NCBI GenBank assembly: GCA_026388715.1
Contig: JAPLJF010000002.1
Coordinates: forward strand, 43,305-107,304
Length of the DNA stretch: 64,000 nucleotides
Origin: Deltaproteobacteria bacterium
GTDB taxonomy: Bacteria; Desulfobacterota; Desulfobulbia; Desulfobulbales; Desulfocapsaceae
Direction: 5' to 3'
Positions 3,694-54,892 of the stretch are shown here, piece by piece. The notes beneath the pieces were generated by a model. It made no database searches. It saw nothing but the letters and a program-made list of their open reading frames with translations, and was not told the origin of the DNA. Each line of letters starts with the position of its first letter. The first letter of the stretch is position 1. The position numbers were made by a program, and so were the translations under genes.

Positions 3694-5142
3694 TTATACC
3701 GCCACAAAAGTGCCCCTGAGTTCTGCGTGAATGGGATGATGAGCAGCCAGATACTTTCGCATGGCATCTATCATTCGCTCAGATCGGTTTTCACGATTGC
3801 GTCCATATTTCGGAGGGACCCCTTGCGGGGTTACGAATGCTGCGGGGTAGTATCGGCTGGGGTGTACCTCTTCGTTGCCGGCAAATAATTTTTGAATCCG
3901 CTGCCCTGGGGGATTCTCTATCTTGAAGTACACATTAAGACCGAGACAGCGCTTGACATAGCCTCCCATCTGTAGATAAGGATCGCAAGAGAATGTCCTT
4001 TCAAGGTTCTCCTCCAGCATCGCCTTGATTTCCTCTCCCGTCAACTCTACTGTTGAGACCGGCGGATTCATGGGAATGATGTTGTAAAGGTCATTCAAGG
4101 TTACCTTTCCGGGAACTATTGGTGCGCCGTAGCGCCAGCCATTTGAAAATGCCAACTGTGCCCCGGTGCTTTCAAGCAACGCCTGGAGGAGGAAATTATC
4201 CATAGTGGCCTCCAGGGTTGTTCCCCGGTTGAGCGCGGTGGCAGTTTCGCCGACAACCTCCGAGAGGTCATGTTTATACGGTGCGAGTGCCTGTCTTACC
4301 AGGTCATCTACTATGGGATCAGGTTGTATAGCTGCTTCGACCTCAATCAACCGATGCCGGTAATCGACGATTTGTCCGCCCTCCACCTCCAGATCCAGGC
4401 GACCCAAAAAGGAACCATGGCAGCCTGACTGCATAACTATGGTTTTACCATTAAGAACTGGCTGATACAGGCGATTATGGGTATGGCCGCTGAGACAAAT
4501 ATCTACGCCATGCACCTCGGACAACAGCTTCATCTCCTGCGGAAATCCGAGGTGGGAGACCAATATGACCAAGTCGACCTTTTCCTGGGCGCGTAACATA
4601 TCGACAATCAGCGGAAGTTCGTCCCTGCCCAGGGTAAAGGAGATGCCTTCGCTATAAGAAGGCGGCATAGCCTTATCCACAATATTTGAGGCTATCCCGA
4701 CAAGGCCGACTCGCAATCCGCCAATCTCTTTCACAACATACGGCTGATAGACCAGCTTCTTGGTCTCTTTATCGTAGACATTGTTTGCCAGCATCGGATA
4801 ATGAAGCTCAGCAACTCGTTGCTTAAATACCTTTGGGCCATAGGCAAACTCCCAGTGAGCGGTCATGGCATCAAGCCCCAACGAGTTCAAGATGGGAACC
4901 AAAGCCTGCCCCTGTGTATCCAAGGCAGGGTAGGTGCCATGAATGGTATCGCCACAGTCGCAAAAGAGAGTACGTCCCTGACTTTCAGCCCGGATCTGTT
5001 TTACAAGCGTGGCAATGCGGGCGTACCCTCCCGCTGGACGGTATTCTGCGTGGTCGCCCTGCCAGAACAACTCCTGGTGCAAATCAAAATAGGCATGGCT
5101 GTCGTTCATTTGAACTATTGAAAGTATCTTTCTGCTCTTCAT
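3694..5142 (-). CDS. 5'-nucleotidase/UshA-family metallophosphoesterase with SoxB-like active-site motif
   Basis: QMNDSHAYFD, DCGDTIHG, TAHWEFAYG (SoxB-type HWEF rather than NHEFD), LSGHTHNR motifs; 482 aa; no obvious signal peptide. Confidence 0.8.
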   Translation of the reverse strand: MKSRKILSIVQMNDSHAYFDLHQELFWQGDHAEYRPAGGYARIATLVKQIRAESQGRTLFCDCGDTIHGTYPALDTQGQALVPILNSLGLDAMTAHWEFAYGPKVFKQRVAELHYPMLANNVYDKETKKLVYQPYVVKEIGGLRVGLVGIASNIVDKAMPPSYSEGISFTLGRDELPLIVDMLRAQEKVDLVILVSHLGFPQEMKLLSEVHGVDICLSGHTHNRLYQPVLNGKTIVMQSGCHGSFLGRLDLEVEGGQIVDYRHRLIEVEAAIQPDPIVDDLVRQALAPYKHDLSEVVGETATALNRGTTLEATMDNFLLQALLESTGAQLAFSNGWRYGAPIVPGKVTLNDLYNIIPMNPPVSTVELTGEEIKAMLEENLERTFSCDPYLQMGGYVKRCLGLNVYFKIENPPGQRIQKLFAGNEEVHPSRYYPAAFVTPQGVPPKYGRNRENRSERMIDAMRKYLAAHHPIHAELRGTFVAV

Positions 5143-9168: not shown

Positions 9169-10182
9169 TCACTTCCCGCCGATGTAGGGTTTGAAGCCAT
9201 AACGCTCGAAGATCTCCAGCGCCTCCGGCGACACCAGGAAGTCCAGCCATTGCTTGACGGCCTGTGGATGGGCCGCCCCTTTCACCATGGCTGCAGCGTA
9301 GACCGCCGTGGTGTTGTCCTTGGCTGGAATAGGTATGTGGCTTATCGGGTGTCCCGCCTGTTCCTGAAAAATAGCCTCGGACTTCCAGGTTACACCCGCA
9401 TCTGCCCGTCCCTGCATTAAATAGAGCGGCGTCTGCCGATGATGGATCTGGGTAAGGATCGTCTCCTCTTTCTTTACCTTGGCGTCGTAAACCATCTGTT
9501 CGAGAGGCTTGCCGCCGACCTTTTCCAGAGAAACCTTGATCTGCCGTGCCACCCCCTCGTACTCCGGGTTGGGCATGACCAGCCGCACCCCCGGTTTGCC
9601 CAGGTCCGCAAGCCCCGTGATATGGGCAGGGTTATCCTTGGGGATCATTATGGTGAGATCATTGGTGACGTACGGTATCGCAGGACCTGTCAGCGTTCCC
9701 TTGTGAATGAGCATATCCACCGTTTCCAGGTCGGCGGCGTAGACGTCCGGATGGACAGTCCATGTCATGTTGCCGACGGTGATGGTGCCTCCATTCTCCA
9801 TCTGCTTGATCAGGATGCCTGGTGGTAAGGTTTCGTAGTAGATCCTGCCCTTGAGATCCGGGTGATCCTTCTCAAAGGCCGCCACCAGCGGGGCCATGAC
9901 GAAGAAGTAATTGCCGCCTGCAAAGATTACGAATTGGGGGTTGTCGATGCTTCCGTGGAAGTCCGGCAGGTTGTCCACTTCCGGTACCGTGAATTCCAAC
10001 CCCTTGTCGATGGCCGGATTGTTCTTGCCATGACTCCAGGGCGGGAATATCTGTTCTTGATAGCTTGGTGTTTTCATATGGCCCCCAAAACCCATATCCG
10101 CTCCCTGGGCACTCACGCCCGATAAGGACAGCAAGATCGCAGCCGCCAGGGCTGCCACACGATGATACATTTGTTTTAGCAT
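9169..10182 (-). CDS. Periplasmic substrate-binding protein, molybdate-type (ModA-like)
   Basis: Signal peptide from MLKQMYHRVAALAAAILLSLSGVSAQG; SBP_bac_11-like organisation; no permease or ATPase adjacent. Confidence 0.65.
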   Translation of the reverse strand: MLKQMYHRVAALAAAILLSLSGVSAQGADMGFGGHMKTPSYQEQIFPPWSHGKNNPAIDKGLEFTVPEVDNLPDFHGSIDNPQFVIFAGGNYFFVMAPLVAAFEKDHPDLKGRIYYETLPPGILIKQMENGGTITVGNMTWTVHPDVYAADLETVDMLIHKGTLTGPAIPYVTNDLTIMIPKDNPAHITGLADLGKPGVRLVMPNPEYEGVARQIKVSLEKVGGKPLEQMVYDAKVKKEETILTQIHHRQTPLYLMQGRADAGVTWKSEAIFQEQAGHPISHIPIPAKDNTTAVYAAAMVKGAAHPQAVKQWLDFLVSPEALEIFERYGFKPYIGGK

Positions 10183-10198
10183 TTTTCTCTCTTTTGAA

Positions 10199-11011
10199 TT
10201 ATTTCGCATACTGATAACCAGCCAACATAAGCTCTGGTAAGGTGCCGACAATACCGGGTGTGAGCACTACCCCAGGTATGAGATGGTTGGTGAACTCTGC
10301 GGTCATCTGCGCGTGGGTGAGGCGGTCCGGATTAACCCCCTTTTGATGAAGGGATAGTGTCAACTCCCAAATCCCGTTGTGGCAGGCCAAAAAGACCGCC
10401 CCTCGTTTTTGGAGAACCGCAACGCTGTCGCCGCGGGGGGAAAAGACGCCATCCGGGTTTTCGAAATCCGCCGGGTTATCCTGGTCGGTCGGCACATCCT
10501 TAATGAAAACGTTGGTCTGGTATTTGTCCTTGGTAAGTTTGGAAAGCTGATATTTATCCCAGAGGAAATCGTCATAGAGCGCCAGATGCGCGGTGCCATG
10601 GGTAGCGGAGAGCGCTAAAAAATTCGGGTGTTTGAAGGACCAGATCTGGACATTCATGGAATTTCGCATCAGTTTCAGCCAAGGTCCCTCCAGATCGGTA
10701 TTATCCCAGACCTGTTTTGGGGCGCCGGCATACTGTAGGAGCTCATTTAACGCTTTTTCGTCCCATTGCGAGGGATCGGTCAGGATCATCGGCACCGTTT
10801 TGAAATCCCGCCGCCTGGGCGCCTTCTCCAGTCTGTTACTTAACTCTTTGAGCGTAACTGCCCCGGCAGGTAACAAGTCAGCCGGAGCACTGCTCATACC
10901 ACTGGCCCATGCCACGTGACCAGCGCCAACAGCCGCTAGACCTGCGCCGAGGCCAAGCATCATATTCTTCAGTGCCTCTCTGCGGCCCATCAAACCGTTT
11001 CGATCACTCAT
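10199..11011 (-). CDS. Tat-exported DsrE-like superfamily protein
   Basis: MGRREALKNMMLGLGAGLAAVGAGHVAWA signal; C-terminus FLACHNGIWELTLSLHQKG...LIPGVVLTPGIVGTLPELMLAGYQYAK is DsrE-like. Confidence 0.6.
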   Translation of the reverse strand: MSDRNGLMGRREALKNMMLGLGAGLAAVGAGHVAWASGMSSAPADLLPAGAVTLKELSNRLEKAPRRRDFKTVPMILTDPSQWDEKALNELLQYAGAPKQVWDNTDLEGPWLKLMRNSMNVQIWSFKHPNFLALSATHGTAHLALYDDFLWDKYQLSKLTKDKYQTNVFIKDVPTDQDNPADFENPDGVFSPRGDSVAVLQKRGAVFLACHNGIWELTLSLHQKGVNPDRLTHAQMTAEFTNHLIPGVVLTPGIVGTLPELMLAGYQYAK

Positions 11012-11085
11012 CATTCTCTCCTTTAAAAAAGTTAATAATCTCATACGCTACACTCGTGATAAACATAAAAATCTCGAGAGCTTTC

Positions 11086-12534
11086 TTATACCGCCACAAA
11101 GGCGCCCCTGAGCTCTGCGTAAAGGGGGCGGTGACCGGCCAGGTATGTCCGCAGTGCATCTATGATATGTTCCGACCGGTTTTCACGATTACGGCCGTAT
11201 TTCTGAGGGACCCCTTGCAGAGTGACGAATGCCGCTGTGTAGTATTGGCCGGGCTGCACCTCTTCATTGCCTGCAAATAATTTTTGAATACGCTGACCTG
11301 AAGGGTTCTCTATCTTGAAGTAGACATTAAGACCGAGACAGCGCTTGACATACCCTCCCATCTGCTGGTACGGGTCGCACGAAAACGTCCTTTTGAGATT
11401 CTCCTCCAGCATCTCCTTGAGTTCCTCTCCCGTTAACTCTACTGTGGAGACAGGCGGATTCATGGGGATTATGTTGTAAAGGTCATTCAAGGTTATCTTC
11501 CCCGGAACTATCGGTGCGCCGTAGCGCCAGCCGTTAGAAAATGCCAATTGCGCACCGGTGCTTTCGAGTAAAGCCTGAAGGAGGAAATTGTCCATAGTGG
11601 CCTCCAGGGTTGTTCCCCGGTTGAGCGCGGTGGCAGTTTCACCGACAACCTCTGAGAGGTCATTCGTATAGGGTGCGAGTGCCTGTCTTACCAGGTCATC
11701 CACTATGGGATCAGGTCGTATAGCTGCTTCGACCTCAATCAACCGGTGCCGGTAATCGACGATTTATCCGCCCTCCACCTCCAGATCCAGGCGGCCTAAA
11801 AAAGAACCATGGCAACCTGACTGGATTACAATAGTTTTCCCATTGAGAACCGCATTGTAAAGGCGGTTATGGGTATGGCCGCTGAGACAAACATCTATGC
11901 CGTGCACCTCGGATAAAAGCTTCATTTCCTGAGGAAATCCAAGGTGCGAGACCAAAACGATTAAGTCCACCTTTTCCTGAGTGCGTAACATATCGATGAT
12001 CGGCGGAAGTTCGTCTTTACCCAGGGTAAAGGAGATGCCTTCGCTGTAAGAAGGCGGCATGGTCTTGTCCACGATATTTGAGGCGATCCCCACAAGGCCG
12101 ATCCGTAATCCGCCAATCTCTTTTATGATATACGACCGATAGACCGGCTTCTTTGTCCCTTTATCATAGACATTGTTGGCCAGCATCGGATAATTCAGTT
12201 CAGCGACCCGCTGGTTAAATACCTTCGGACCATAAGCAAATTCCCAGTGGGCTGTCATGGCATCAAGTCCCAACGAATTCAAGATAGGGATCAAAGCCTG
12301 TCCCTGCGTGTCCAAGGCGGGATAGGTGCCGTGGAGGGTATCACCGCAGTCGCAAAAGAGTGTGCGTCCCTGGCTCTCAGCCCGAATCTGTTTTACAATC
12401 GTGGCGATGCGTGCGTAACCTCCCGCTGGACGGTATACTGCGTGGTCGCCCTGCCAGAACATCTCCTGGTGTAAATCAAAATAGGCATGGCTGTCGTTCA
12501 TTTGAATTATTGAAAGTATCTTTCTGCTTTTCAT
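11086..12534 (-). pseudogene. Second SoxB/UshA-like phosphoesterase paralog interrupted by one in-frame TAA
   Basis: Two ORFs in the same frame (11764..12534, 11086..11742), colinear with 3694..5142 (482 codons, no indels); CAA (Gln257) of the other copy is TAA at 11764-11766. Confidence 0.9.
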
Positions 12535-12869: not shown

Positions 12870-12995
12870 TTATTTTTTGGATAGCTTGTTAATTGCGACG
12901 ACCAGCAGGACCACCACCAGTACGCCGATCACCATCAAAATCCACATCCCTCCGCCCGCCCATCCGCCCATCCATCCGTTTGTATGCATCATCAT
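12870..12995 (-). CDS. Small single-TM glycine/tryptophan-rich membrane protein, 41 aa (not in ORF track)
   Basis: MMMHTNGWMGGWAGGGMWILMVIGVLVVVLLVVAINKLSKK with AAAGGAG upstream. Confidence 0.6.
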   Translation of the reverse strand: MMMHTNGWMGGWAGGGMWILMVIGVLVVVLLVVAINKLSKK

Positions 12996-13103
12996 AAAAC
13001 TCCTTTGGTTGTCGTTGCGCTGCGACTGGCCCACCACCGGGCAAACAGGAACGTGAGTGGGGGCAGAGCAACGTCATTTGCAGTAGCGGCCACAGGCCCG
13101 CCA

Positions 13104-13820
13104 TTAGCCGGCGTTCTGCAGGGCAAATTCCCAGTTGATCAGCTTGTCGAGCACGGCGTTTACATAGTCGGCACGGCGATTCTGATAAACGAGATAATAG
13201 GCATGCTCCCATACATCAATGGTAAGCAGTGGCTTTACGCCTGTTGTCAAAGGGGTATCGGCATTGGCGGTCTTTACTACCTTGAGCTTATCGCCATCAA
13301 GAACAAGCCAGGCCCAGCCACTCCCGAACTGTGAAACGGCCGCGCTGGCAAGCTCCTTCTTGCAGGCGTCGACGCTGCCGAAGGATGACTCGATTCTCTG
13401 CTTGAGTGCGGCAGGCGGTTCGCCGCCGCCCTTTGGTTTCATGCTGTTCCAGTAGAAGGTGTGGTTCCAGATTTGCGCCGCATTGTTGAAGATTGCGCTT
13501 TTTTCACGCCGTCCTGCGGTACCGGTAATAATCTTCTCCAATGACAGGTCGGCGTATTCTGTTCCGCCGATAAGCTTGTTCAGGTTGTCCACATAGGTTT
13601 TGTGATGTTTCCCGTAATGAAAACTGATCGTGCGGGCTGTTATGACCGGTTCCAATGCGTTCTCACCATAAGGGAGAGGGGGTAAGACATGGGGTGATGC
13701 TGCCTGTGCAGTCCTGGAAAGACCGCCCATTGCGAGCCAGGCAGCGGTGCCAGCAGATGCAATAAGAAAACTGCGACGATCAAGCACGGTTGAAGAATTG
13801 GTTGTGTCTTGTTTGTTCAT
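13104..13820 (-). CDS. Fe/Mn superoxide dismutase with Tat signal peptide
   Basis: [21 protein letters not shown] signal; SOD motifs [45 protein letters not shown]. Confidence 0.9.
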
Positions 13821-13976
13821 ATCGGTCTCCTTACAGTTGGTGGGGGATGATGTATAACATTGGCAGGCTTGATTGTTAGAAGTCGCGACCACCTGCATGA
13901 ATCGCTACGCGTGGTGAGTATGTCACTGGCCCGACTGCACAGTCGGTGGCGCCTGAATGGTCGTTGCCAAGCGACC

Positions 13977-14403
13977 TTAGGCGTTGAGGAATGCCAGCAG
14001 GTCGGCGTTGAGCTGGTCTTTGTGCTTGTATGCGAGACCATGGGGTGCGCCCGCGTAGATCTTCACGGTCGCGCCCTTGCCAGCTTCGCTGAGCGGAGGA
14101 GCGCGTCGCCGATCGGCACGATCGGTCGTCGTCGCCATGGACGATTAGCGTCGGCACGTCGAATTTCTTGAGGTCGTCAGCATAGGTGTCCATCTCGTTG
14201 CCACTTCAGGGCTGGCTCGACCGCCCATGGCCGCGAAGGTCATGGGCAATGCAGCGATAGCCGTTGGCGGCCAGGAACAGCATCTGAGCCTCCCCCAGCT
14301 ATCCGCAACTGAGGGGCCAGCCGTGGCTGAACACCACAGGCTGTCCTGTGCCCCAGTCCTTGTAATAGATCTGCGTACCGTCTTTCGTTGTAATTGTGCT
14401 CAT
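13977..14403 (-). pseudogene. Truncated, frameshifted alpha/beta hydrolase (haloperoxidase type)
   Basis: N-terminus [32 protein letters not shown] and C-terminal [15 protein letters not shown] parts match the intact copy at 30241..31065; about 400 nt missing internally. Confidence 0.8.
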
Positions 14404-14490
14404 TGTTTGCCGTCTTTGTCGCTTACATCCACGACGCCCGTGTCTTGTCTGATATCCGCTACTTTCAAAAGCACCTGGCCGCCTCTCCTG
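14400..14490 (-). pseudogene. KatE C-terminal remnant
   Basis: [26 protein letters not shown] matches [29 protein letters not shown] of KatE at 26186..28294. Confidence 0.75.
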
Positions 14491-14504
14491 CAGACAGACC
14501 AACA

Positions 14505-14590
14505 TTGGTTTTACCAGCCGTACGGTCTCCAGGTCCAACTCTTTGGTATACTTGCAGTATGGTCCTTTTCCATTTCGACACCTCCGTTTA
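14505..14590 (-). mobile_element. Possible IS3-family orfA N-terminal remnant
   Basis: [17 protein letters not shown] resembles the KYTKEFKLEAVRLV start of IS3-type OrfA. Confidence 0.35.
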
Positions 14591-14659
14591 TCAGTCATTA
14601 TAAACTTTGGTGTCCATTCTTTTCACCTGCCTCAGGAAGACGCGCCAGTGTAGGGAAAA

Positions 14660-14890
14660 CCGAATACATTGTCACGATTCATCGTTGCGATGTATTTGAG
14701 GGCTTCCTGTCATGTCAGAGGAACTTCAGCCATATTGGCATTTTTTGCCCATACGAGTCTCGTCAACCTATCGAGAACCGTATCGTCAAGGACCTCGAAT
14801 CGTGGTGCAGGCCAAGACACGCCGCTCCTGAAGTCCGCGTCCTGGCCGCCCCCGATGCAATCGATAGTGAGGCCCCTCTATCCCCTTGCT
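14660..14890 (-). pseudogene. DUF1566-like domain remnant
   Basis: CIGGGQDADFRSGVSWPAPRFEVLDDTVLDRLTRLVWAKNANMAEVPLT*QEALKYIATMNR has DUF1566 repeat character with an internal TGA. Confidence 0.5.
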
Positions 14891-14901
14891 TCCTGGCCTG
14901 C

Positions 14902-16893
14902 TTATTTCTTTTTCTGCGCTGCCTTTATTGGCTGGAACGGTCCGTACTGATGCTGTTCCTGAGAAAAATCATCCGCATAGGGTGGATACGGGCAGTCCAC
15001 CGCTTTTTTCTCCAGTTTCGGATAGTCCTTCTCCAGTCCGCTCATCTGCGGCCGCTCCTTGGAGCTGAGATAGGCGGCGACATCGTAGGTGTCTTCATTG
15101 GTGATTGCCGGCTGGTTCCACACCGTTCCCAGCGGCATGTTGCTGTGAATAAACGCGGCGGTGGTCAACAGCCGGTTCATTCCCGCTCCATTGTTATAGC
15201 TGTTTGCTCCCCAGAGCGTCGGGGCGACATGGCTGCCCGAACCTCCGGCCGACATTGACTGATAGCCGTCCCCATTTTTGCCATGGCACGACATGCAGAA
15301 CCGGTTGTACACTTCTTCGCCTTTTTTCACATCGGCCCTGTGGTTCGGACCTTCGTATTTGGGTGTTACCAGGCCAAAAACATCCTTGGGCATGTCTTTC
15401 GACAACCAGTTCACGTAGGCGACCATTGCCTTCATCTCCCTGCTGTCGGCAGCCATTGCCTTGCCGTTCAGGCTGCGCTCGAAACAGCCGTTAATCCGCT
15501 GCTCAAGACTCTGCACCTGGTCTTCGCGGCCTCGGTATTGGGGGTATGTCTGGCTAACCCCCATCCAGGGGAGTCCGAACTGCTTGGTGCCGTTATCCAG
15601 GTGGCAGCTCGTGCAGTTCAGGACATTTCCGGAAAAACGCATTTTCTCATCCTTCACTTCAGAGCCGAGCTGCGCATACGTATCGGTTAAAAGCAGTGCG
15701 CCGTAACGGATGAGATCACCTTCCTCTCCCTGGGGAATATTCTTCAACAGTGGCGGTACCCAGGCGGCAGAAGATCCTTTTCCCTCTATTGGCGGCGCGG
15801 TGGTGCGCTCCGCATCGGCCAGCGTGGTCAAAAATCTGAGGATATTGTTGATTTCTTCGTCCTTTAGTTTCTTGTCCAACTGCAAGTAACCCATTTGATC
15901 CACTGCCGCCGCCAGGTTGCCCACCTCACCGTCATGGAAATAAGGGGCGGAAAGGGTGACATTGCGCAGCATGGGAACCTTGAAGACATATTTATCACTT
16001 TCCAGGTTGGTGACCTTAAAGCGTCCAGGATCCTTGTCGTTAGTGTACTTATGGAACACACCTATTTTCTGGAAGGTCATCCCGCCCAGATTGGGGCCGT
16101 TGTGGCACTGCACGCAACCGACATTGATAAAGGTACGCATCCCTTCCATTTCCTGCCCGGTGAGGGCCTGTTTGTCCCCGGCCATGAACCGGTCGAAGCG
16201 GCCCCGGCTTATCAGCGTTCGTTCAAAGGCGGCAACCGCTTTGGCAAAGTTGTCGAAAGTCACGGGGTCTTTCTCGCCGGGAAAGGCCTTTTTGAAATCA
16301 GCGGGATACTCAGGTATGCCTTTCAGCCGTTCGGCCACCGCTTCACCATTGGGCATGCCCATTTCAATGGGGTTGAGAGGGGGCCCCTGAGCCTGATCTT
16401 TCAGAGTGGCCGCGCGTCCGTCCCAGAACTGCGCAATCTGGAAACCGGCATTCATGGTTGGCGGATCGTTGCGGTCGCCAGATTTTCCTATCGCGCCTTT
16501 GCCGGTCTTGAGATTGTCCACGCCTGCGCCTTTGTTGTCAATGGGATGGCAAGAGTTGCAGGATTGGGTTTTGTTGATCGAAATGGCTTCCTCGAAATAG
16601 AGTTTCTCCCCCAGCGCAATCATGGCGGGGGTGTCCTGCTCACTCCCCGGCATGGTTGCAGGAAGTTTGCCGAAAAGCGCCTGCGCCTGCATCAGCAGCA
16701 CACCATCTGGGGTGCCGGGTACCGCTTTGATTGTGCACGAGGCATCCACTACCTGGCTCTTGGCCGCTTTTTTGGGTGTTTCCTTTGTGGATTTGGCAGA
16801 GGCCTGCGAGATCAGATTACCCCCCATATCGTAAAAAATTAGTGCGCTCAGCCCCGTTATCAAAAAAACGGCTGGTCCTAGCTTTTTTCGCAT
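14902..16893 (-). CDS. Tetraheme fusion: di-heme cytochrome c peroxidase (CCP/MauG) domain + TsdA-like thiosulfate dehydrogenase domain
   Basis: Single ORF with CNSCH, CVQCH, CTSCH, CMSCH. N-half: MIALGEKLYFEEAIS..PPTMNAGFQIAQFWDGRA..APYFHDG (CCP). C-half: NCTSCHLDNGTKQFGLPWMGVSQTYPQYRGREDQVQSLEQRINGCFERSLNGKAM..MVAYVNWLS and PTLWGANSYNNGAGMNRLLTTAAFIHSNMP (TsdA). Confidence 0.85.
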   Translation of the reverse strand: MRKKLGPAVFLITGLSALIFYDMGGNLISQASAKSTKETPKKAAKSQVVDASCTIKAVPGTPDGVLLMQAQALFGKLPATMPGSEQDTPAMIALGEKLYFEEAISINKTQSCNSCHPIDNKGAGVDNLKTGKGAIGKSGDRNDPPTMNAGFQIAQFWDGRAATLKDQAQGPPLNPIEMGMPNGEAVAERLKGIPEYPADFKKAFPGEKDPVTFDNFAKAVAAFERTLISRGRFDRFMAGDKQALTGQEMEGMRTFINVGCVQCHNGPNLGGMTFQKIGVFHKYTNDKDPGRFKVTNLESDKYVFKVPMLRNVTLSAPYFHDGEVGNLAAAVDQMGYLQLDKKLKDEEINNILRFLTTLADAERTTAPPIEGKGSSAAWVPPLLKNIPQGEEGDLIRYGALLLTDTYAQLGSEVKDEKMRFSGNVLNCTSCHLDNGTKQFGLPWMGVSQTYPQYRGREDQVQSLEQRINGCFERSLNGKAMAADSREMKAMVAYVNWLSKDMPKDVFGLVTPKYEGPNHRADVKKGEEVYNRFCMSCHGKNGDGYQSMSAGGSGSHVAPTLWGANSYNNGAGMNRLLTTAAFIHSNMPLGTVWNQPAITNEDTYDVAAYLSSKERPQMSGLEKDYPKLEKKAVDCPYPPYADDFSQEQHQYGPFQPIKAAQKKK

Positions 16894-16910
16894 AATCAAT
16901 CCTCCTTTGT

Positions 16911-17084
16911 TTAACAGATATTTTTCGTTGACGTTGGCACCCATACCTTCTAATCGTTATCTGTCAAAGCATATCACCTCCCTTCAACAATGCTTAAAAT
17001 CAGAGTTGAATTTTTCGATTAAGGTTGGATTTTTTCAAGGTCACTCCGTGACTTTGGCCTAATGTTATCCTTCAGCGCCGCGCC
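16911..17084 (-). promoter_or_regulatory. Upstream region shared with 20249..20423
   Basis: About 174 bp visibly similar to the region upstream of the second peroxidase gene. Confidence 0.6.
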
Positions 17085-17176
17085 ACTTGCGCCCCGTCCG
17101 TTGCTGGTGTTGAATGGCCGACCGGTATGTTTTTCCGTACCGGCGCCACCAGCCAGGAGGCACCGGTACGGCGACC

Positions 17177-17558
17177 TCAGGTCTTAAGGAACGCCAGCAG
17201 GTCAGCGTTGAGCGGGTCTTTGTGCGTGTATGTGAGGCCGTGGGGTGCGTCTGCGTAGATTTTCAGGATCGCGTCCTTGATCAACTTCGCTGAGCGAAGA
17301 GCCGCGGCGCCGATCGGTACGATCTGGTCGCCGTTGCCGTAAAGGATCAGCGTCGGCACGTCGAACTTCTTGAGGTCTTTGGTGAAGTCCGTTTCAGAGA
17401 ACGCCTTGATGCAGTCGAAAGTGTTCTTGCGACCGGCCTGCATCTATTGGAGCCAAAACGAGTCGATCATGCCCTGCGAAATCTTGGTGTCGGGCCTGTT
17501 GGACCCGAAGAACAGGCCGCTGGCGAGATTTTTGTAAAGCTTGCGACCGCTCAGGCTG
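17177..17558 (-). pseudogene. C-terminal half of alpha/beta hydrolase (second degenerate copy) with internal TAG
   Basis: [47 protein letters not shown]... aligned with the intact copy at 30241..31065; abuts the SOD stop codon at 17562. Confidence 0.85.
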
Positions 17559-17561
17559 CCA

Positions 17562-18188
17562 TCAACCAAGGTTTTCTGCCGCGAAATCCCAATGAATCAG
17601 TTTATCCAGCACTGCGTTGACATAGTCCGCTCGTCGGTTCTGGTAATCCAGGTAGTATGCGTGTTCCCACACATCGATGGTCAACAACGGTTTCATGCCG
17701 GTGGTCATAGGCACCTCTGCATTGGCGGTCTTGACCACCTTGAGCTTGTTGCCATCCAGCACGAGCCACGCCCAGCCGCTGCCGAACTGGGCCATTGCCG
17801 CAGTCGCCAACTCCTTTTTGCATGCATCCAAGGTGCCGAAGGAAGCCTCGATCTTTTGCTTTAACACTGCGGGCGGTTCACTACCGCCCTTCGGCCTCAG
17901 ACTGCGCCAGTAAAACGTGTGGTTCCAGGTTTGTGCCGCATTATTGAAGATCGCGGTTTTGTCAGCTTTGCCGGCTGTCTCGGTGATGATTTTTTCCAAC
18001 GGCAGGTCCGCAAACTCCGTTCCTGCTACCAGCTTGTTCAGGTTATCGACATATCCCTTGTGATGCTTGCCGTAGTGGAAGCCAATCGTATTTGCGGAGA
18101 TTACGGGGGTCAGCGCGTTATCCGCATAGGGCAGGGCTGGCAGGGCAACATGCGAAGCTGCACTTTCAATCTTGTTATTGCTCATCAT
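17562..18188 (-). CDS. Fe/Mn superoxide dismutase (second copy, no signal peptide)
   Basis: [48 protein letters not shown]. Confidence 0.9.
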
Positions 18189-18389
18189 TTTTCCTCCTAT
18201 GTGGTGAGGTAACAGCCGAACAGTGCAATAAGGGGGGATTTTGTTCATCATATAACCCCCTATGAGTGGATGGAATTGCCACTTATTCTTGTATTATTGA
18301 ACTATGGACAATTAACCCGTTTTTTGTCCGCTTATTGTCTTTTTATCTAGTTTTTTCCATATTCTTATCTGATCGTATCGCGATAGGAT

Positions 18390-18494
18390 ATGGGAAGTCA
18401 AAAGAAAAATAAACCGAAATTTCTCCCGAATCCCGGCCTCAAACCCATAGATCAGGTGAGCGAGGTGCTCTGGAAAGAGGTAAAAAAAGATTAA
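18390..18494 (+). pseudogene. N-terminal remnant of a tyrosine/integron-type integrase, truncated at a 180-bp-element copy
   Basis: MGSQKKNKPKFLPNPGLKPIDQVSEVLWKEVKKD* resembles the N-terminus of environmental IntI-like integrases; its stop overlaps the element boundary. Confidence 0.45.
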
Positions 18495-18645
18495 GAGCTT
18501 GTCCGTAAATAAATTTTTGGTGCTCGCATCCGGCTTTTGGCCGTCTTTGATCGCTCCTCAATCGCAAAATCCTCGCCGTAGCGCTGCTACGGCTGCGGTT
18601 TTACTCAATCGTCTCGGCCAAATTCGTCTCAAAATCCGGCGCGTC
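18495..18645 (+). repeat. 180-bp TIR element, copy A (right end missing)
   Basis: Starts GAGCTTGTCCGTAAATAA after TAA; internal sequence matches 47159..47338. Confidence 0.85.
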
Positions 18646-18848: not shown

Positions 18849-20231
18849 TTACAAGGATTTCAAGAAAGCAACCAGTTCCTGCTTTTCCTGGGTGGTCAAT
18901 TGGAGTTGCTGTACAAGGTTGAAATATTCCACCGTATCCTCAAGCGTAAAGCACCGGCCATCGTGCAGATAGGGCGGGGAGTCCTTGATGCCTCTCAAGG
19001 GAAAGGTCTTGATGGGCCCGTCGTGGGCCATCATCATGCCATTTGCTAACTCCGGCTTGTAAAAACGCTCAGCCTTGAGGTTGTGCATGCTATTGTCGGT
19101 GTAGTAGGGGGCAGGATGGCATGCGGCGCATCGAGCCTTCCCGTTAAAAAGCGTCTCACCGCGTAGTTCATCTGGGCTAGCCTTGGTCCGGTCGAGTTCG
19201 CCATAGATATTGAGCTTGGGCGCCGGAGGAAAATCAAGGATCGCCAGAAATTCCGCCATGAAATGCACTTGTGATCCCCTTTCAAGAACGTTGACACCCT
19301 TCTTGGCAGCCATACATTGGTCGCCGTCAAAGTAGGCGGCGCGCTGCTCGAACTCGGTGAAATCCTCCACTGTCTTCAAAGCACGCTGCGAACCGAAGAG
19401 CCGCTGGATGTTCACTCCCCGCAAGGTGGGCGTTTCGATACGATGTCTGAATTCCTGTGGGCGAATGTCGCCGACAAGATGGTTGGCCCCGTTGGTATGA
19501 CCGTTGGCGTGACAGTCGAAACAGGTTACACCCAAGCTGGGCCTGTCGGTCCGGCGGTCTTCAGTCGCGTTAAATTGCTGTTGCGGAAACTGGGTCACGA
19601 GAAGGCGCAGGCCTTCCAGTTGCTTGGGGTTCAGGATACCGTTGAAAATCTCGTAGTAGTTGTCGATGGTAATCAGACGCCCTTTTGCCACATCACCAAG
19701 GTCGGGCCGAGTGGTCAGGTAAATTCCAGGAGCCGGGTCCGGAAGGATATGCTCGGGCAGGTCGAAATCCAAGTCAAAGCGTACCAACCGTGGCAGTGGT
19801 TTCGTGATCATCGGTGGGAAGAGCATACCCCCCTCCGCGTGGTCTGCAAACGGCAGTGGTTTGTATGGGAAAATTCCTTTCTCTTTGATTTGTTCAGGAG
19901 TCATCTTACCAAGCTGCTCCCACGTTACGCCCTGGAGTTTGGTTGTCGGCCCCACGGGAAGGGGTTTTCCCCCTGACATAACGGACTCGGCGTTGACTTT
20001 CTTTGAGAGGTCATAGCGGGAGTTCAGTAATTCCATGTGCTGTTTAGCCCGTTCGGCTTTTACCGCCATACGCGTGGCTTTAATCTGGTCGAAGGTGACG
20101 TCCTGGTTCGTCGGTCCATAGCTGGAGACAACCTTCTCCTGCTGTGCAGAGATAGCTGCAGTGGCGGCCCCCGCGACCATCAGAATGCAGATTGCGATCA
20201 ATGCAAAACGGTGCTTCTTTTGTTGGTTCAT
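18849..20231 (-). CDS. Di-heme cytochrome c peroxidase/MauG-family protein
   Basis: CFDCH and CAACH motifs, TFPLRGIKDSPPYLHDGRCFTLEDTVEYFN; signal/anchor N-terminus. Confidence 0.8.
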   Translation of the reverse strand: MNQQKKHRFALIAICILMVAGAATAAISAQQEKVVSSYGPTNQDVTFDQIKATRMAVKAERAKQHMELLNSRYDLSKKVNAESVMSGGKPLPVGPTTKLQGVTWEQLGKMTPEQIKEKGIFPYKPLPFADHAEGGMLFPPMITKPLPRLVRFDLDFDLPEHILPDPAPGIYLTTRPDLGDVAKGRLITIDNYYEIFNGILNPKQLEGLRLLVTQFPQQQFNATEDRRTDRPSLGVTCFDCHANGHTNGANHLVGDIRPQEFRHRIETPTLRGVNIQRLFGSQRALKTVEDFTEFEQRAAYFDGDQCMAAKKGVNVLERGSQVHFMAEFLAILDFPPAPKLNIYGELDRTKASPDELRGETLFNGKARCAACHPAPYYTDNSMHNLKAERFYKPELANGMMMAHDGPIKTFPLRGIKDSPPYLHDGRCFTLEDTVEYFNLVQQLQLTTQEKQELVAFLKSL

Positions 20232-20248
20232 TTCAGAGGTCTCCTTTT

Positions 20249-20423
20249 TTAGCAGATATTTTTCGTTGGCGTTGGCCCTCATACCTTCTAGTCGTTATCT
20301 ATCACAGTATATCACCTCCTTTCAAAAATGTTTAAAACCAGAGTTAAATTTCCCGACCAAGGCTGAATTTTTTCAAGGTCACTCCGTGATTTCGGCCTAA
20401 CGCTATCCTTCAGCATCGCGCCC
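20249..20423 (-). promoter_or_regulatory. Upstream region shared with 16911..17084
   Basis: Shared blocks CAGATATTTTTCGTTG, TCGTTATCT, TTTTTTCAAGGTCACTCCGTGA, GGCCTAA, TATCCTTCAGC. Confidence 0.6.
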
Positions 20424-30134: not shown

Positions 30135-30240
30135 TTCGTTTTTCTCCTTCAGTGTGATTTACTATAACTAATAGTATAGACACGAAGCGCCGCGAACCCT
30201 TGATAACGGTTGGCTTTGCAGCGGTGCCGGTAAAGCGATC

Positions 30241-31065
30241 TCAGGTTTTAAGGAATGCCAGCAGGTCGGCGTTGAGCTGGTCTTTGTGCGTGTACGCGAG
30301 GCCGTGGGGCGCCCCCGGGTAGATTTTTAGGGTCGCATTACTGACCAGCTTCGATGAGCGGAGCGCTGCGGCACCGATCGGTACGATCTGGTCGTCGTCA
30401 CCATGAATGATCAGCGTCGGCACGTCGAACTTCTTGAGGTCTTCGGTGAAATTCGTCTCGGAGAACGCCTTGATGCAGTCGAAGGTGTTCTTGTGACCGG
30501 CCTGCATCCCCTGAAGCCAGAACGAGTCGATCATGCCCTGCGAAACCTTGGCGTCGGGTCTGTTGGCCCCGAAAAACGGGCCGCTGGCGAGATCCTTGTA
30601 GAACTGCGAGCGGTCGGCGATGGAGCCAAGACGGATCTCGTCGAATTTCTCAATCGGCAAGCCGCCGGGATTGGCCTTTGTTTTCAGCATCAGTGGCGGG
30701 ACGGCGGAGATCAGGGCGGCCTTGGCCACCCGTTTCGTGCCATGACGGCCGATATAGCGGGCAACCTCACCGCCGCCCGCAGAGAAGCCGATGAGGACAG
30801 CATTTTTCAGGTCGAGCGCCTGGATGAGTTCCGAGAGGTCGTCGGCATAGGTGTCCATCTCGTTGCCACTCCAAGGCTGGCTTGACCGGCCATGGCCGCG
30901 ACGGTCATGGGCAATGCATCGATATCCGTTGGAGGCTAGGAATAGCATCTGGGCCTCCCAGCTATCAGCGCTGAGCGGCCAGCCGTGGCTGAATACCACA
31001 GGCTGGCCTGCGCCCCAGTCCTTGTAATAGATCTGCGTACCGTCTTTCGTCATAATCGTGCTCAT
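30241..31065 (-). CDS. Alpha/beta hydrolase, non-heme haloperoxidase type (intact copy)
   Basis: [54 protein letters not shown]; full length. Confidence 0.9.
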
Positions 31066-31189
31066 TGTTGTGTCTCTTTTCAAAACGATACCTCCTTCGT
31101 TAGTTTGCCCCACGGGGGTGCGTTCGATCAGCATAACTGTATCTTGATTCATATGACTGCTTCCGCCAATTGCGCAGGGAAGGGCAAGC

Positions 31190-31576: not shown

Positions 31577-31716
31577 GAGCTTGTCCGTAAATAAGCTTTT
31601 CAGGGATCGCGCCGGATTTTGAGACGAATTTGGCCGAGACGATTGAGTAAAACCGCAGCCGTAGCAGCGCTACGGCGAGGATTTTGCGATTGAGGAGCGG
31701 CCAAAGACGGCCAAAA
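31577..31716 (-). repeat. 180-bp TIR element, copy B (reverse orientation, one end missing)
   Basis: TTA then GAGCTTGTCCGTAAATAAGCTTTTCAGGGATCGCGCCGGATTTTGAGACGAATTTGGCCGAGAC, reverse complement of copies C and D. Confidence 0.85.
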
Positions 31717-47130: not shown

Positions 47131-47158
47131 TTTACAGTTATTTTTGAACGACGGCTTA

Positions 47159-47338
47159 GAGCTTGTCCGTAAATAAATCTTTGGTGCTCGCATCCGGTTT
47201 TTGGCCGTCTTTGACCGCTCCTCAATCGCAAAATCCTCGCCGTAGCGCTGCTACGGCTGCGGTTTTACTCAGTCGTCTCGGCCAAATTCGTCTCAAAATC
47301 CGGCGTGATCCCTGAAAAGCTTATTTACGGACAAGCTC
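47159..47338 (+). repeat. 180-bp TIR element (MITE-like), copy C, complete
   Basis: GAGCTTGTCCGTAAATAA ... TTATTTACGGACAAGCTC, flanked by TTA/TTA (47156-47158, 47339-47341). Confidence 0.92.
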
Positions 47339-54669: not shown

Positions 54670-54712
54670 ATATGTGCTCCTTGTTAAAAAAATATCAGGC
54701 TGTCATCATTAA

Positions 54713-54892
54713 GAGCTTGTCCGTAAATAAATCTTTAGTGCTCGCATCCGGATTTTGGCCGTCTTTGGCCGCTCCTCAATCGCAAAATCCTCGCCGTAGC
54801 GCTGCTACGGTTGCGGTTTTACTCAATCGTCTCGGCCAAATTCGTCTCAAAATCCAGCGCGATCCCTGAAAAGCTTATTTACGGACAAGCTC
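54713..54892 (+). repeat. 180-bp TIR element (MITE-like), copy D, complete
   Basis: Same ends as copy C; flanked by TAA/TAA (54710-54712, 54893-54895). Confidence 0.92.

Follow-up and report, generated by a model that had tools for sequence, protein, structure and literature searches.

The peroxidase-dehydrogenase gene and its surroundings

The window examined here is a stretch of 64,000 nucleotides from the genome of a deltaproteobacterium of the Desulfocapsaceae. It contains a gene in which a di-heme cytochrome c peroxidase (BCCP) is joined by a linker to a thiosulfate dehydrogenase (TsdA) (Table 1). The frame is uninterrupted and stays open back to position 16944 (14902-16944, reverse strand, 680 aa). 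Its start is placed at 16893, where a Shine-Dalgarno sequence, AAAGGAGGATTGATT, precedes the ATG and a Sec-type leader follows. Ribosome-binding site, leader, and frame all agree with the initial annotation, which had chosen this start and described one unbroken open reading frame. Counted from this methionine, the four CxxCH motifs lie at residues 112, 260, 427, and 533.

Table 1. Features of the fusion gene and its neighbours (window coordinates).
Feature	Position	Strand	Evidence
Fusion gene BCCP - linker - TsdA, 663 aa, tetraheme, predicted secreted	14902..16893	(-)	ORF and RBS, Pfam, full-length homologues
Putative Sec-type signal peptide MRKKLG...LISQASA, residues 1-33	16795..16893	(-)	Read directly from sequence
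BCCP half, residues ~65-368	15790..16701	(-)	PDB to 4.5e-74, CCP_MauG 8.7e-52, Foldseek TMt 0.75-0.77
CNSCH, peroxidatic (P) heme	16546..16560	(-)	Invariant in 22 fusion rows
Ala134, replacing the P-heme distal His (His71 P. aeruginosa, His75 N. gonorrhoeae)	16492..16494	(-)	Alignment
CVQCH, electron-transfer (E) heme; sixth-ligand candidate Met334	16102..16116	(-)	Motif and alignment
TsdA half with C-terminal tail, residues ~379-663	14905..15759	(-)	PDB phmmer 2.1e-40, Foldseek TMt 0.93, rmsd 1.7
CTSCH, TsdA heme 1 (active site)	15601..15615	(-)	Motif, alignment, invariance
Cys470, heme-1 Cys ligand (AvTsdA Cys96)	15484..15486	(-)	Alignment and invariance
CMSCH, TsdA heme 2	15283..15297	(-)	Motif, alignment, invariance
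Asn585-Met586, heme-2 ligand pair	15136-15141	(-)	Alignment; PMC5146829
5' leader of the fusion, 188 bp, 86% identical to the leader of the MauG-like gene 18849-20282	16902..17089	(-)	Only two copies in genome
SBP_bac_11 solute-binding protein	9169..10251	(-)	Homologue directly downstream of fusion in L040, L044, fragment L049, apparently L156
TetH-type thiosulfate dehydrogenase	10199..11044	(-)	NF052225, above cut-off
Fe/Mn superoxide dismutase with Tat-like leader	13104..13898	(-)	Sequence
Fe/Mn superoxide dismutase without leader	17562..18251	(-)	Sequence

Three Pfam families are found in the frame: CCP_MauG (8.7e-52), SoxA-TsdA_cyt-c (1.3e-14), and Cytochrom_C (1e-18). These are the families that a domain search, proposed in the initial annotation as a check, was expected to return. 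Among proteins in the PDB, the N-terminal half matches solved BCCPs (Geobacter 3hq9, 4.5e-74; N. gonorrhoeae 6qkn/6fu3, 2e-73), and the C-terminal half matches, by phmmer, TsdA (4wqc, 2.1e-40) and TsdBA (5lo9, 1.6e-36). No plasmid record spans at least 80% of the query, and an Rfam search of the window gives no match.

The flanking genes fall into two groups, as the initial annotation recognised when it placed the fusion in a ROS-defence island next to a sulfur-oxidation array. On one flank are a SorAB sulfite dehydrogenase, a DsrE-like protein, a SoxB-like protein with a broken second copy, a nine-CxxCH cytochrome, the solute-binding protein, and the TetH-type thiosulfate dehydrogenase. The other flank carries superoxide dismutases, a di-heme MauG-like protein, a cupin, and DJ-1. 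Because one of the dismutases has a Tat-like leader, superoxide may be converted to H2O2 in the fusion's own compartment. Conservation of the neighbours across fusion loci is patchy: SoxB-like genes recur at three other loci (L024, L028, L043), DJ-1 at three (L023, L026, L045), and superoxide dismutase at one (L041).

The genome, which is 94% complete, has the fusion as its only detected CCP_MauG domain and its only detected TsdA match. The shared leader, found just twice in this genome, suggests that the fusion and the MauG-like gene are regulated together. The latter encodes a 477-aa protein with two CxxCH motifs and a MauG-like C-terminal half, for which no Pfam family scores above its cut-off.

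The two SoxB-like genes (11086-12534 and 3694-5142) are closely similar, and the 11086-12534 copy is broken by a single in-frame stop; selenocysteine was rejected as an explanation since the codon is TAA. Decayed and duplicated pieces of superoxide dismutase and alpha/beta-hydrolase genes surround the fusion (12900-18300 and 30200-31100), which indicates tandem duplication of the island. A dispersed repeat of about 154 bp lies at 18490-18643, with copies at 47158-47305, 54708-54861, and 31608-31716. Most copies are 92-100% identical, about 29 occur in the genome, and the repeat is possibly a MITE-like element.

Conserved residues and predicted structure

Residues were compared in 22 fusion rows, two of which (L113 and L038) have identical domains. 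In the BCCP half, Trp157 is the counterpart of the relay Trp, Gln167 and Glu177 are those of the catalytic Gln and Glu, and Met334 is that of the E-heme Met; all four are present in every row. The roles of these residues in BCCPs have been described (PMC10094543). The CCP fold, Trp relay, Gln/Glu, and His/Met E heme of a classical di-heme BCCP are thus all found, but the distal His is missing.

At the position of this distal P-heme His, which in classical BCCPs closes off the heme of the oxidised enzyme, all 22 rows have Ala. A fusion of the reverse order and a tandem gene pair (both described below) have the His, as do 29 of 45 stand-alone CCPs. Four stand-alone CCPs also have Ala there, so the loss of the His may predate the fusion event. 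Its absence suggests that the P heme is always open, without a need for reductive activation.

In MauG, the distal ligand of the second heme is Tyr rather than Met. The N-terminal half, initially called CCP/MauG-type, is therefore better described as a BCCP of the His/Met type. Its CCP character stands, and the MauG identity is rejected, as Met334 is kept in all fusions and the MauG model scores 126.7 against a cut-off of 443.85.

In the TsdA half, Arg456, Arg466, and Ser474 lie near Cys470 and align with Arg82, Arg92, and Ser100 of the A. vinosum enzyme. All four, and the heme-2 ligand Met586, are found in each of the 22 rows. Their A. vinosum counterparts are Arg109, Arg119, Cys123, and Ser127 in precursor numbering, and their roles are known (PMC4423706). 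The Ser is the residue that separates TsdA from SoxA. Together with two CxxCH motifs in a SoxA/TsdA fold, these residues identify the half, which the initial annotation had called TsdA-like, specifically as TsdA; fold and profile agree. A generic cytochrome c is ruled out by the TsdA-specific residues and fold, and SoxA by a score of 58.6 bits on the NCBIfam SoxA equivalog, where the cut-off is 110.

The Asn-Met pair at heme 2 is shared with TsdBA of Marichromatium purpuratum (MpTsdBA) and with 49 of 51 stand-alone homologues. In C. jejuni, TsdA has the same Asn-Met at heme 2 and acts in vivo as a tetrathionate reductase (PMC5146829). Since the pair is so common among homologues, it does not decide the direction of the reaction.

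The fusion was modelled with AlphaFold2 from a 48-row alignment (mean pLDDT 80.6), and the model was compared by Foldseek. The pTM of 0.83 is no more than a hint that the two halves pack in a defined way. The predicted TsdA half superimposes closely on A. vinosum TsdA (TMt 0.93, rmsd 1.7). The BCCP half is more similar to activated, mixed-valence BCCPs (TMt 0.75-0.77) than to oxidised ones (0.63-0.67); the model is poorest at the distal loop of the P heme, where pLDDT falls under 50 (mature residues 96-125). Across both halves TsdBA superimposes poorly, with an rmsd of 14, and the overall arrangement is not shared.

Recurrence and origin

Loci in a genome collection were scanned and their frames scored with each half. 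Among 79 loci, 20 besides the window carry full-length, uninterrupted fusions, 50-90% identical; at other loci the fusion is cut off by the end of the contig, and one copy (L045) is frameshifted. Together with the window, alignment A1 comprises 21 rows. Of 258 genomes of the class to which the window belongs, 9 encode a full-length fusion; this number counts the window and some assemblies shared with the collection scan. A search of the phylum gives further ones. Altogether, the fusion occurs in about two dozen genome assemblies.

The fusion loci are labelled Desulfobulbaceae, Desulfocapsaceae, Desulfobacteraceae, Desulfarculaceae, Desulfuromonadaceae, Rhodocyclaceae/betaproteobacteria, and Kiritimatiellae, although single MAG contigs may be mis-binned. 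One carrier is a cultured strain not labelled as a MAG, Desulfosarcina cetonica JCM 12296 (L036). The search for proteins of the same order that the initial annotation had suggested is thus answered in quantity, and recurrence in other assemblies excludes misassembly or chance: the fusion is real. Frames of 752 aa in three genomes (G203, G215, G216) were considered as further fusions and rejected; TsdA in these genomes is encoded by a 291-aa ORF next to a bd-like oxidase.

Domain trees describe how the fusion may have arisen. On the TsdA side, the fusions fall into a single clade (support 99). They do so on the CCP side too (98), with one long-branched stand-alone CCP (L051) included, and monophyly of the fusions on the CCP half is not rejected by an AU test. 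The branching orders of the two trees largely agree, which suggests that the forward fusions go back to a single fusion event and have been inherited as one conserved unit.

A second association of TsdA with BCCP exists. A reverse-order TsdA-CCP fusion of 638 aa is encoded in the window's genus (G008, L101:5873-7789), and tandem tsdA-ccp genes are found in another genome (G012, L100) and in a distant family (L155). The CCP of this association is of the MacA type and has the distal His. A tree in which this association shares a clade with the forward fusions is rejected for the CCP half (p-AU 3.3e-7) but not for the TsdA half alone (p-AU 0.31). Genome G012 contains both systems.

Other TsdA arrangements were seen in the same data. 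One TsdA (L139:2761-4128, G229) is fused, in a 456-aa frame, to an N-terminal membrane-anchored domain resembling DUF305. TsdA of another type lies beside a pair of bd-oxidase-like membrane proteins with c-type heme motifs (L026:4447-8368, L040:3391-7228, L044:3472-7240, L133, L134, L138, L156:6922-10732). This pair with its TsdA is possibly a thiosulfate-linked oxidase, and it adjoins the fusion in L026, L040, L044, and L156.

Proposed reaction, alternatives, and related enzymes

The fusion is probably a periplasmic tetraheme thiosulfate:H2O2 oxidoreductase. In this model, a two-electron oxidation would be coupled to a two-electron reduction, with the net reaction 2 S2O3(2-) + H2O2 + 2 H+ -> S4O6(2-) + 2 H2O. 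Thiosulfate would be bound by Arg456, Arg466, and Ser474 and oxidised at the Cys470-ligated heme 1. Electrons would then pass through heme 2 (His/Met586) to the E heme of the BCCP half (His/Met), and from there by way of Trp157 to the P heme. Cleavage of H2O2 at this heme would be the task of Gln167 and Glu177. Lacking its distal His, the P heme would be permanently open. We infer the transfer between the halves, its direction, the open P heme, and the physiological role, which would be that of a thiosulfate-powered peroxidase in anaerobes meeting O2.

The H2O2/H2O couple lies far above +198 mV. This value is the potential of the tetrathionate/thiosulfate couple (PMC9562282), so the reaction would be strongly downhill. 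A direct wiring of peroxide reduction to thiosulfate oxidation had been put forward in the initial annotation. It is supported in part: the residues conserved in both halves, the second, differently ordered association, and the sulfur and ROS neighbours all favour it.

Alternatively, both enzymes may be active but each may use soluble periplasmic cytochromes, the fusion merely holding them in one place. This would fit the completeness of both halves and their sharp similarity to enzymes that stand alone and use soluble partners. Functional coupling is nevertheless favoured by two associations of opposite order and by inheritance as one unit, and MpTsdBA is a precedent for TsdA fused to its own electron acceptor, so simple co-localisation is unlikely. 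Somewhat less likely still is that the TsdA half reduces tetrathionate, in which case the BCCP hemes would serve as a relay for incoming electrons or as an alternative outlet. Asn585-Met586 does recreate the C. jejuni ligand environment (PMC5146829), but the wide occurrence of this pair in MpTsdBA and stand-alone homologues leaves direction undecided, and the invariance of the catalytic Gln and Glu would be left without a reason.

The sulfur substrate could also differ. SorAB, SoxB-like, and DsrE-like genes lie nearby and the TsdA Cys reacts with sulfite (PMC9562282), which would fit oxidation of sulfite, polysulfide, or an organic thiol with H2O2 as the oxidant. Such a substrate has a slim chance, as every thiosulfate-binding residue of TsdA is kept, the TsdA-specific Ser included. 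A misassembly or an ordinary cytochrome in place of a true two-enzyme fusion has practically no probability left; no finding speaks for it, and it is refuted by more than 20 uninterrupted loci elsewhere, the cultured strain among them. Coupled thiosulfate oxidation and H2O2 reduction remains the preferred reading.

Defence against peroxide and the oxidation of thiosulfate are usually treated as distinct periplasmic processes linked by shared cytochromes. No description of a TsdA-peroxidase fusion was found in the open full-text literature searched. Both enzymes are known; what is new, as far as this open literature shows, is that they are combined, that the combination recurs in two orders, and that the His which gates the P heme is absent. 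The odds are evenly balanced on whether this amounts to an undescribed enzyme class, a self-contained thiosulfate peroxidase with four hemes in a single chain and a permanently open P heme, in which coupling evolved at least twice and peroxide defence is independent of the respiratory chain. A single enzyme oxidising thiosulfate with H2O2 would let anaerobic sulfur bacteria use this abundant inorganic compound directly as an antioxidant and would produce tetrathionate at oxic-anoxic edges. It would also be a convenient system in which to study how electrons move through hemes from one active site to another. Because the family includes a cultured strain, the function can be tested.

Classical BCCPs, such as those of N. 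gonorrhoeae and P. aeruginosa and MacA of Geobacter, share two hemes, the Trp relay, the catalytic Gln and Glu, and the E-heme Met with the fusion. They have the distal P-heme His that the fusion lacks, and they receive electrons from soluble cytochromes or azurins, whereas the fusion carries its donor enzyme with it. The CCP of N. europaea (1iqc) has a P heme that is open without reductive activation; the same is predicted for the fusion from the missing His, not from spectroscopy. Unlike the fusion, it is a stand-alone protein. YhjA of E. coli, a non-classical tri-heme peroxidase, likewise joins a BCCP to a heme domain that supplies electrons. There, the addition is a single N-terminal heme in a membrane-bound protein with a quinol donor, while in the fusion it is a catalytic C-terminal TsdA with an inorganic donor.

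The TsdA enzymes of Allochromatium vinosum and Campylobacter jejuni resemble the TsdA half in their di-heme fold, in the Cys/His ligation of heme 1, in the Arg/Arg/Ser substrate site, and in the heme-2 Met, and the Asn-Met pair of the fusion is of the C. jejuni type. They differ from it in being stand-alone di-heme proteins that exchange electrons with other proteins. TsdBA of M. purpuratum (PDB 5lo9) is also tetraheme and also has a C-terminal TsdA behind an N-terminal di-heme c-type partner. This partner, TsdB, is an electron-acceptor cytochrome and not a peroxidase. The fusion is not itself a TsdBA, as its N-terminal half belongs to the CCP_MauG family: a BCCP holds the N-terminal place of TsdB.
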